DNA of 64,000 bases, taken from assembly GCF_001315945.1 (NCBI RefSeq), contig NZ_BBBG01000001.1, forward strand, positions 124,001 to 188,000. The letters run 5' to 3'. The notes beneath the pieces were generated by a model that worked only from the letters and a program-made list of their open reading frames with translations, made no database searches and was not told the origin of the DNA. Positions 19,944-22,917 of this stretch are shown here, piece by piece; positions within the stretch are counted from its first letter, which is position 1; every line of letters begins with the position of its first letter. The translations under genes and the position numbers were made by a program. The stretch comes from Methanogenium cariaci JCM 10550. Lineage in GTDB: Archaea; Halobacteriota; Methanomicrobia; Methanomicrobiales; Methanomicrobiaceae.

Positions 19944-20772
19944 ATGAAACAGATCGCCCTCTATGGGAAGGGTGGTATCGGGAAGTCCACCACATCCGCA
20001 AATCTCTCGGCAGCTCTCTCTGACTGCGGGCTGGATATCATGCAGATCGGGTGCGACCCGAAACATGACAGCACCCGGATGCTGATGTGGGGGGGGAGTG
20101 GATTCCGACCGTCCTTGATCTTGTACGTGAACATGGTGATGCCAATATCGCGGTCTCTGACGCGGTCTTCACCGGGTATGGGGGGGTATCCGGTGTGTCG
20201 AGGCAGGCGGACCGGAACCGGGCATCGGCTGTGCGGGCCGTGGCATCATCGCCACCTTTCAGCTGCTCCAGCGTCTGGAGGCACTCTATGGCGATGTGAT
20301 CGTTTATGATGTCCTCGGTGACGTGGTCTGCGGCGGGTTTGCAATGCCCATGCGTGACGGCTACGCACAGGAGATATACCTCGTGACTTCGGGTGAGTTT
20401 ATGTCGCTCTATGCGGCAAACAACATCTGCAAGGCAATCGCCCGTCTCTCCCGGCGTACACGCAGTGTCTGTTCCCTTGCCGGTGTCATCTGCAATTCAA
20501 AGAATATCCCCGGCGAGGAGGCACTGGTGCGTGAATTTGCCGAACGCGTGAATTCACGGATGATCGCCTATATCCCCCCCCGTGCGAACATCGTTCAGGT
20601 TGCCGAGGTGAACCAGCGCACGGTTATCGACTACGCACCGGAGTCGGAACAGGCGGAGGTCTACCGGCAACTGGCGCGTGAGATCATGGAAAACACCACG
20701 TATACTATTCCCACCCCCCCACTCGAGATGCATGAACTTGAAGAGCTTGCCCGGTCGCACCTCACGGTTTGA
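19944..20772 (+). CDS. NifH-like iron protein of a nitrogenase-like complex
   Basis: A homodimeric ATP-driven electron donor of the NifH/BchL/CfbC superfamily. Walker A is GKGGIGKST (residues 9-17) and switch I is CDPKHDSTR, with His where NifH has Ala. Both cysteine ligands of the shared [4Fe-4S] cluster are kept: [14 protein letters not shown] and [13 protein letters not shown]. The Arg after the first Cys, the ADP-ribosylation site of true NifH, is also present. The frame breaks at G runs near 20090 and 20181. Corrected length is about 273 residues. It overlaps the NifD-like gene by about 41 bases. No nifI regulators follow it, unlike archaeal nif operons. CfbC of F430 synthesis is an alternative, but CfbC pairs with one NifD-like protein, not two. 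Confidence 0.88.
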
Positions 20773-21784
20773 GGGCTGTACGGTCATGGGTGTCCTCTCG
20801 GTCAGTGCCTTTCTGACCGATGCGGTGACCCTGATCCATGGCCCGGACGGTTGCAGCCATATCAATGCCTCACTCCTGCACACCACCCTTGCCGAACACG
20901 ATATATTCCGCATCCCGGAAATCGTCTCCACCGGTCTTGGTGAGAATGAGATTATATTCGGCGGTGAGGACGCACTCCAGGAGGTGCTGACCGATGTCTG
21001 TGCCGATGATCCGGCTGCGGTGGTGGTCGCAAGCACCTGCGTCTCCGAGACCATCGGGGATGATGTAGCAGGTATCTGTAGCCAGCCGTGGGACTGCCCG
21101 GTCATCTATGTGCCCAGTTCCGGGTTTCTCGGCGGCACCTTTGTGGACGGTTATACCGGGACCCTCACTGCACTTTCGTCTTTTATCACCCCCCCCGGAG
21201 AACAAAACCCCGGAAAAGTAAATATCATCGGTGAGAAGAATCTGGAGTTTGAGGCGGAGGACAATTTTCAGGAAGTTTCCCGCCTCCTCGGCATGCTCGA
21301 CCTTGACGTGAACATCCGGTATGTGCGTGACATCACGGTGGAGGATATCGGGAAATTCGGTGATGCCGGGCTGAACCTCTTCCGGGAGGACAAATGCGGC
21401 GTACTGGGGGGGCGGCATTTCGATGCATGTACCGGCATCCCTTCTCTTCCTGAGTTTCCGGTCGGACTCTCGGCAACCCTTCAATTCATCCGGGATGCGG
21501 GCCGTCTCACCGGTCGTGACACCACGGATGCGGTCCGGGCCGAAGAAGAGCAGCAGGCCGGACTGGCGGATGAATTCTCAGATCTGGCCGGTGAGTATGT
21601 AACCTTTGACTCATTCGGGTTCCAGTCGGCAGAGATGGATATGTTTGCCGAGGTGGCAAAGGCCGTGGGTATCCGGGTCTCCGAGGAAGGCACGGTTATT
21701 CCCATCCCCCCCTTCTGTATGCCGGTGGGCACCCTCGGTCTGCGGCGGATGCTCCGGCAGTGGCGGAGGTTTATCAATGGCTAA
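20732..21784 (+). CDS. NifD-like subunit of a nitrogenase-like complex
   Basis: The first component-1-type subunit, about 345 residues. It has three cysteines at the positions of the P-cluster-type ligands: [19 protein letters not shown] and [26 protein letters not shown] segment parallels the VSGFRG region of NifD. The second half ([22 protein letters not shown]) is the usual Rossmann-like repeat. I find no convincing match to the Cys/His pair that holds FeMo-co in NifD. The size is nearer NifE-, CfbD- or BchN-like proteins than true NifD (about 480). ATG 20732 lies inside the NifH-like gene, so the two are translationally coupled. Confidence 0.85.
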
Positions 21785-22917
21785 ACCCTGTACTACTCCC
21801 CCCCTCTGGCCCTGTGCGATGGTCGGCGCCGCTGCGGCGATGGCCGGGCTGGACGGGGCAGGCGTCATCATACACGGGGCGTCGGGCTGCTACTTCTTTG
21901 CAGACTCGCTCATACCTGATCCTGTCAACTGCACCTATCTTGTCGAGGACGAGGTGATCTTCGGTACCGGTGAGCGCCTGCACGAGGTGGCGGAGGCTCT
22001 GGTGCCCTTCAGCGAGAAGATTGTGGTCATCAACACCTGTGTGCCTGCGACCATCGGTGAAGACCTCGGCCCCCCCTACTGTGCCGGGTGCGACCCCCTG
22101 ATCATCGATGCCCCCCCCGGCTATTGTGGTGACATGACGGACGGCTATAGGCTCGCACTGGCCGCACTCCCCCCCACGGAGACGGACCCGTCACGGGAAG
22201 GGGGGGTGAACATCGACGGGCTCATATCAACCGACCCCCCCTTTGCCGTCGGAAACCGGATGGAGGCCGAACGCCTGCTTGCCTGTGCAGGTATACCGGT
22301 TGCGGCCCGCTACTGTGCCGATACGCTGGCCTCCGCCATGAAACCGGCGGAGATGACGGTGACCGCGCTTCCTGATGTGGCCTCCGGCATCGGGCAGTCC
22401 GTCGGCTCACTCTGCGGGCTGGATGCCATAGAGAGCACCTTTTGTGCCCTGTCTGATCTCTTTCCGGATGCAGATAGTGGCCCGGTCACGGATATCTGTG
22501 AGGAGACGGAAGAACTGGTGGTCAAGGCATGTGACCGCTACCTCCGCGTCAACGACCCGCCGCGGGTGGCGCTCTTCGGGATGGCCGGCTACATCGATAT
22601 GGCTGCCGACCTCTTTTCCACCTTTCTGGATGCGGAGATATGCGGTGCGGGTGCCCGCAACCAGCCGCCTGAGGGCTCGTTATGCACCTGGGCCCCCCGG
22701 ATCTGGGGCGGTGAAACGGATGATCGCGGCAGGGGGGGATCCGGATCTGATCCTCGGGTCCCGGTATGAAGCGACCCTTGCACCGGGCGTGCCCTTTGTG
22801 CAGATCACCACGCCCATCCGCAAAAGCTCCATGCTCTGCCACCGCCCGCTGATAGGCACTGAGGGTGTCCTCTGGCTCATCGAGTCTGTGGTGAACGCAG
22901 AAAAAAAAGAATGCTGA
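21777..22917 (+). CDS. NifK-like subunit of a nitrogenase-like complex
   Basis: The second component-1-type subunit, about 370 residues after joining. Cysteines again match the P-cluster triad: LWPCAMVGAAAAM, HGASGCYFF and NTCVPATIGEDL. A PGYCGDMTDGY segment follows. The N-terminal extension of true NifK is missing. Frames change at G/C runs, the last near 22704, after which AVKRMIAAG and RSSMLCHRP-like text (KSSMLCHRPLIGTEG) continue to the stop. It overlaps the NifD-like gene by eight bases, so H, D and K form one tight operon. With both D- and K-type subunits this looks like a heterotetrameric reductase, substrate unknown. Confidence 0.83.

Follow-up and report, generated by a model that had tools for sequence, protein, structure and literature searches.

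The window analysed here is a stretch of 64,000 nucleotides from the genome of Methanogenium cariaci JCM 10550, and it contains three overlapping genes, H, D and K, which together span positions 19944-22917 on the + strand. H (19944..20772) encodes an ATPase of the NifH/CfbC family, i.e. an Fe protein, and is recovered in two pieces (19944-20102 and 20173-20772), whose matches to PF00142 (234.5 and 71 bits) are far above chance. The start of D (20732..21784) overlaps the end of H, and the gene encodes an intact component-1-like subunit of 350 aa (PF00148, 185 bits). The start of K (21777..22917) in turn overlaps the end of D; K encodes a second component-1-like subunit (PF00148, 71 bits), which has a length of about 372 aa in relatives. 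An earlier note, made from the letters of this DNA, had described three overlapping genes for a NifH-like ATPase and two component-1 subunits; its coordinates were right, and the strong matches to PF00142 and PF00148 agree with its gene assignments. The closest named loci to D belong to Methanogenium and share 90%, 88% and 86% identity in D. The genes upstream of H-D-K (16070-19892) encode a flavodiiron-like ODP protein, a desulfoferrodoxin, TrkH and a UPF0114 protein.

The earlier note had also suspected broken frames. Such breaks are indeed present in H, near a run of eight G at 20089, and in K, near a run of seven G at 22732, where matches to the K profile (421 and 73.5 bits) flank the break; the H-D-K genes of relatives are intact. 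The density of G/C runs of length seven is 3.4 per kb in the window and 3.2 per kb across six further stretches of the genome, compared with 0.03 per kb in five close-relative loci. Runs of four G/C, on the other hand, are fewer here (1.8 per kb versus 5.6 in relatives), and A/T runs are similar. Thus, G/C homopolymers of four appear to be inflated to seven or eight throughout the window (1-64000) and the six other stretches. Because the runs of seven are inflated and those of four depleted with respect to the relatives, the frame breaks in H and K are most likely an assembly artefact. The same artefact may lie behind the completeness of 59% at which the assembly was scored, a value that makes absences from this genome less firm.

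Distribution and genomic context

D was detected (E<=1e-55) in 99 of 107 genomes of the order Methanomicrobiales, a set made up of the order genomes with a completeness of 95% or more together with the genome of the window itself, which scored 59%. Eight genomes lack D at this threshold: six carry the genus code g35 and one carries g23, and the eighth is G116, whose assembly is fragmented and yielded no NifH match at 1e-40 either. At E<=1e-3 the D profile matches 195 of 199 order genomes, but the weak matches at this level can be CfbD or NifE. In a sample of 392 genomes of the phylum, the order members with D score at least 360 bits against the D profile and the class below D tops at 192 bits. 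Within these 392 genomes D was seen in the order only, the best match elsewhere reaching 189 bits; the class that tops at 192 bits and these outside matches are the NifH-D fusions described below. Genomes beyond the phylum were covered by a pattern-based scan of named loci only.

The counts for named loci rest on 80 loci kept of 200 found. We take the names of 77 of the 80 to be those of Methanomicrobiales taxa, and the other three (L157, L187 and L221) are labelled only Euryarchaeota. In 79 of the 80 loci H is found upstream of D at a distance of at most 341 bp; the remaining locus starts at a contig edge. An overlap of H and D is seen in 77 of 80, with lengths that depend on the start codons chosen by the script. 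A true K is present in 70 loci, since the K match was D itself in ten, and it lies on the opposite strand in 12 of the 70. H, D and K were all found in each of the 20 contexts that were compared; K is separated by a few kb in L048, L054 and L055, and L054 and L055 have it on the opposite strand. As to a conserved partner gene, only H was common to all 20 contexts, the neighbours having been compared with each other and not all scanned with Pfam. Nor was a tetrapyrrole gene recognised in these contexts, in which the unshared neighbours were partly scanned. Of the 20 loci, 12 have a TrkH-family gene near H-D-K and 10 have one of the flavodiiron-like ODP family, which we read as shared synteny. 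In four of the 20 contexts (L045, L046, L049 and L053) K has a convergent NifX-like neighbour, typed by a PF02579 match in the one member tested. H-D-K is a real, order-wide and uncharacterised feature and not a local oddity; in the open-licence literature we found no published description of an order-wide H-D-K operon or of a shared CfbC.

Cluster ligands, fold and phylogeny of D and K

The cysteine motifs quoted in the earlier note are all present, and the positions in D and K are invariant across relatives: Cys16, Cys41 and Cys103 of D in 21/21 and 44/44 rows, and Cys12, Cys37 and Cys87 of K in 21/21 and 36/36 rows. The position of NifD Cys275, which follows an invariant Arg, is occupied in D by Glu or Asp in 21/21 and 43/44 rows and by Ser once, and the region of His442 is missing from D in the rows shown. 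The FeMo-co Cys/His pair, which the note had failed to find, is therefore absent. Because the six cysteines are invariant and the FeMo-co ligands are gone, D/K likely hold an Fe-S cluster at the P-cluster position and are unlikely to hold a cofactor of the [8Fe-9S-C] type.

AF2 monomer models were obtained for D (mean pLDDT 89) and for the K of a relative (mean pLDDT 90). The D model used 43 relatives from the 59 usable of the 80 loci, 21 loci having been set aside, 20 of them because the matched region contained an in-frame stop and one during trimming; for the K model, 36 of the 70 true K sequences were used. The D model is nearest in fold to MarDK, followed by NifEN and DPOR BchB, and the K model is nearest to NifN, so that both subunits are predicted to have the component-1 fold.

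In a quick tree of 104 rows, D, K, the D halves of the fusions (cut at residue 265) and their K-like partners each formed one group, as did CfbD, NifD, NifE, NifK, NifN and a lone D-like family. In the careful tree, D is one clade (100/100) that groups with the fusion D halves (98/95). These D/K trees are unrooted and leave out the named Mar and Isr proteins. AU tests rejected D and NifE as one clade (p 3e-6), and left unrejected D and BchB as one clade (p 0.26, with one long row) as well as the grouping of K with fusK (p 0.36) and with CfbD (p 0.44). D and K are distinct clades outside those of NifD, NifK, NifE and NifN, which supports the view in the note that this is not canonical Nif. The matches to curated families are all below the cut-offs: D and K score 46 and 33.5 bits against TIGR03282 (CfbD, cut-off 268 bits), and D scores 72 bits against BchB (cut-off 490), 50 against BchZ (529) and 27 against BchN (420). 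The identification of D as CfbD, against which the note had argued, was rejected on account of a separate cfbD gene elsewhere and of a different clade. The only PF00148 matches in the genome itself are D, K and CfbD, so that no nifE or nifN was found in this assembly, which may be incomplete (59%). In four genomes the mean identity is 43% for D and 42% for K, compared with 74% for H, 73% for CfbD and 46% for CfbE; since CfbE diverges nearly as much, the rate of divergence speaks neither for nor against D/K as a core step.

The lone D-like family is a third one (392-425 aa; L133-L138 and L130), and the five members included in the tree cluster as a single clade. It is located near an NAD_synthase-like gene in L133-L134 (one tested), which is presumably LarE-like, and after the cfb cluster in L138.

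H and the cfb genes

The best NCBIfam match of both H pieces is NF033200 (F430_CfbC), with 82 and 283 bits against a cut-off of 402 bits, the gene being broken in two; of the 107 order genomes, 101 have a match that exceeds the cut-off. H is the only strong NifH-type match in the window genome, all other matches to PF00142 or NF033200 being at most about 39 bits. Exactly one NifH-type match (E<=1e-40) is found in 68 of the 107 genomes, more than one in 38 and none in one, and 66 of the 68 genomes with a single match carry D (E<=1e-55). Judged by sequence, H is best assigned to the CfbC family and is often the sole NifH-type match.

CfbD is encoded once per genome in 107/107. The window genome contains a separate cfbD elsewhere. 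In the order cfbD lies in a cfbA-E-D-B cluster without cfbC, an arrangement that is readable in six of 11 cfbD loci (L117, L119, L120, L122, L123 and L124), the other five being partly hidden by the ORF choice of the script or, in the case of the own genome, by broken frames; around cfbD in these 11 loci, no NifH-type gene was found. Outside the order, cfbC sits between cfbD and cfbB (L265-L268), with a full cfbA-E-D-C-B set in L266 and L267 and a partial one in L264, L265 and L268; L274 deviates. Because no NifH-type gene was found at the 11 cfbD loci of the order, which appears to be without cfbC in its usual place, H is the candidate available as Fe protein for CfbD. A separate cfbC-cfbD pair, for which the note had proposed to look, is not there, as cfbD stands apart and H itself is the protein that matches the CfbC family best. 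The note had held that novelty would be refuted if this locus had the only CfbC-type ATPase and D were orthologous to CfbD; H is the only strong NifH-type match in the genome, but D is not orthologous to CfbD.

The best tree places H with NifH-like rows (92/71). An earlier AU test rejected H and cluster cfbC as one clade (p 9e-6), but its row set contained nested rows (L274 with L131) and the odd L271; with a cleaner set the same clade was not rejected (p 0.38). Nine rows were dropped between the first and the cleaner H trees, and the fusion H half was cut at about residue 275 in the first. As the cleaner set did not reject this clade, we do not claim a displacement of cfbC: H may be either a relocated cfbC or a replacement.

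Fusions and genomes without D/K

NifH-D fusions (about 670-800 aa) together with a K-like gene are present in 16 loci (L091-L106). Ten of these (L091-L097, L102, L103 and L106) carry at least three corrinoid-type gene clusters, two (L100 and L101) have a single kind, and none was found in L098, L099, L104 and L105. The clusters counted were CbiK, CobN, CbiZ, Peripla_BP_2, FecCD, AAA/VWA and ABC ATPase, which were typed by scanning one member of each, the ABC ATPase by eye.

All six loci without D/K that were examined keep H, D/K being missing from the same site. In these loci a gene of about 140 aa follows H after 155-181 bp; its kin are located after K in L051, L052 and L059, and the one member tested had no Pfam match. 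That H is retained at these six loci suggests that it is of use even in the absence of D/K. A fusion-like ORF (D-like match, 688-763 aa) is present in five of ten D/K-less genomes (G155, G177, G182, G167 and G148), and the NifH half was seen in the same ORF for G148, G167 and G177. No fusion was found in G163, G171, G047 and G178, and only a fragment in G197. Fusions are also present in at least four genomes that do have D/K (G025, G043, G066 and G112). The distribution, which reflects mostly one genus, hints at an overlap in function between the fusion and D/K. G178 (L271), which is without D/K, contains an odd, divergent NifH-type gene (331 bits) with one TAA.

Discussion

Starting from what can be read in the sequences (gene identity, order-wide conservation, overlap and adjacency, ligand pattern and clade), we consider, at a probability of about 0.5, that H-D-K is a second reductase of the nitrogenase-like kind, that its ATP-driven Fe protein also serves F430 biosynthesis, and that its most likely substrate is a tetrapyrrole. 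The note, too, had seen here a candidate reductase without a known substrate. ATP hydrolysis by H dimers would drive low-potential electrons from a single [4Fe-4S] cluster to one of two acceptors: CfbD, encoded elsewhere, for the reduction of the F430 ring, or a D2K2 heterotetramer. The latter would use an Fe-S cluster of the P-cluster position, held by the six invariant cysteines and with no FeMo-co-type cluster, to reduce a substrate in the open pocket of D. This substrate could be a Ni- or Co-containing tetrapyrrole, or a precursor, reduced by chemistry like that of DPOR. We infer the sharing of H, the D2K2 tetramer and the type of cluster, and, less firmly, the tetrapyrrole as substrate of D/K. 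The tetrapyrrole is suggested by an Fe protein that is tied to F430 synthesis and by fusions that are often located beside corrinoid-type genes; the lack of a recognised tetrapyrrole gene at H-D-K and the four of 16 fusion loci without corrinoid-type clusters count against it. It should be noted that sharing of H is not forced in 39 of the 107 genomes, in which the number of NifH-type matches is not exactly one. A fuller version, which we regard as possible rather than probable, is that one CfbC-type H of the Methanomicrobiales feeds both CfbD and a D2K2 that reduces another tetrapyrrole, thus a new hydroporphinoid or corrinoid reductase, and that the fusion is its functional counterpart in some D/K-less genomes.

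Among the known systems, CfbC/CfbD resembles H-D-K in that H is of the CfbC family and the sole NifH-type match in 68/107 genomes, and in having subunits of about 350 aa and no FeMo-co. It differs in that CfbD, a homodimer encoded separately, contrasts with two unlike partner subunits that form clades of their own. DPOR (BchLNB) and COR (BchXYZ) likewise have a heteromeric component 1 without FeMo-co and a similar fold, and a clade of D and BchB was not rejected (p 0.26, one long row). However, the six invariant cysteines contrast with the Asp-type ligand of BchB, the D/K subunits are shorter, and the scores are far under the curated cut-offs. The L-cluster ligand, which is reported to be absent from BchN, BchY and CfbD, is absent from D as well. 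The Group IV/VI enzymes (Mar, Isr; the "yellow" clades of Dos Santos 2012, PMC3464626, which lack both FeMo-co ligands and may include the present set) share the HDK gene order and, in the case of the yellow clades, three cysteines per subunit; "Group VI" is the label used for nitrogenase-like enzymes in PMC9391474 and PMC12176620. They differ from the H-D-K set described here, which has no conserved radical-SAM partner, is an order-specific clade and has a CfbC-family Fe protein. Finally, the NifH-D fusion system has NifH-type, D-like and K-like parts, and its D half groups with D (98/95). However, its H and D are fused, its D half is longer (466-530 aa as cut), the K-like partner in L091 keeps one cluster cysteine (by eye), and corrinoid-type genes surround the fusion in ten of 16 loci. 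Dos Santos 2012 (PMC3464626) describes NifH-NifE fusions and D/K-like pairs, some of them archaeal, without both FeMo-co ligands.

H-D-K might instead be a reductase of C-S bonds or of another small molecule, acting in sulfur scavenging like IsrHDK (isethionate) or MarHDK (methylthio-alkane). The gene order is the same, MarDK is the best fold match of D, absence from some genera would suit an accessory nutrient role, and Isr (PMC11423573) also is without FeMo-co ligands. We nevertheless hold this to be rather unlikely, because D/K are near-universal in the order, the 20 contexts (neighbours not all Pfam-scanned) have only H in common and no conserved radical-SAM B gene, and D groups with fusions that are frequent in tetrapyrrole loci. 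Moreover, IsrD keeps one cluster cysteine (PMC11423573), whereas D has three, and Mar is reported to keep its active-site cysteines, where D has Glu/Asp. It is unlikely, too, that D/K take part in F430 biosynthesis or repair as an accessory or alternative partner, such as a helper of CfbCD or a system that might re-reduce oxidised F430. Such a role would explain the overlap of D with a CfbC-family gene, the constant presence of CfbD, and the divergence of D/K, which is about as fast as that of the F430 enzyme CfbE. Yet genomes of g35, g23 and g36 have CfbD without D/K (for G178, of g36, the evidence is a CfbD-length match outside the 107-genome CfbD count).

Three further candidates were rejected. 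A scaffold like NifEN, which would serve the MCR activation complex in the making of its [8Fe-9S-C] cluster, might be thought of because NifE is the best NCBIfam match of D and NifN the top fold match of K, and because methanogens are held to need such clusters (PMC12176620). We consider it very improbable: the cysteine that holds the cluster in most NifE proteins is Glu/Asp in 21/21 and 43/44 D rows and Ser once, and the AU test spoke against D and NifE as one clade (p 3e-6). In addition, D was not found outside the order in the 392 sampled phylum genomes, and it is absent from g35, g23 and g36, methanogens that should need MCR too. Hardly more credible is that D/K replace CbiJ, the cobalt-precorrin-6A reductase of B12 synthesis, which is missing from the order. 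The related fusions are often located in corrinoid loci, and CbiJ (PF02571; the control search matches M. jannaschii, not M. acetivorans) was found in 0/107 order genomes while CbiD was found in 103/107. However, G163, G171 and G047 have CbiD and lack CbiJ, D/K and fusion alike, so that D/K are not needed for this step; G178 is also without D/K and fusion, but falls outside the CbiJ and CbiD counts. An ordinary or minimal nitrogenase, to which the H-D-K order and the three cysteines in both D and K might point, has next to no chance of being the right answer: the FeMo-co Cys and His are absent, no other component-1 protein but CfbD was found in the 59%-complete genome, and D and K are outside the NifDKEN clades.

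A major order of methanogens has a near-universal, uncharacterised nitrogenase-like complex that is tied to the Fe protein that F430 synthesis appears to need. Surveys based on nifH would meet H in most Methanomicrobiales genomes although it is not a nitrogenase component. The natural absence of D/K from genomes that retain H makes the function of the complex testable. If H is shared as we propose, this would be an example from nature in which a single Fe protein serves two component-1 partners, which bears on the split of the superfamily into homodimeric (CfbD) and heterotetrameric enzymes.
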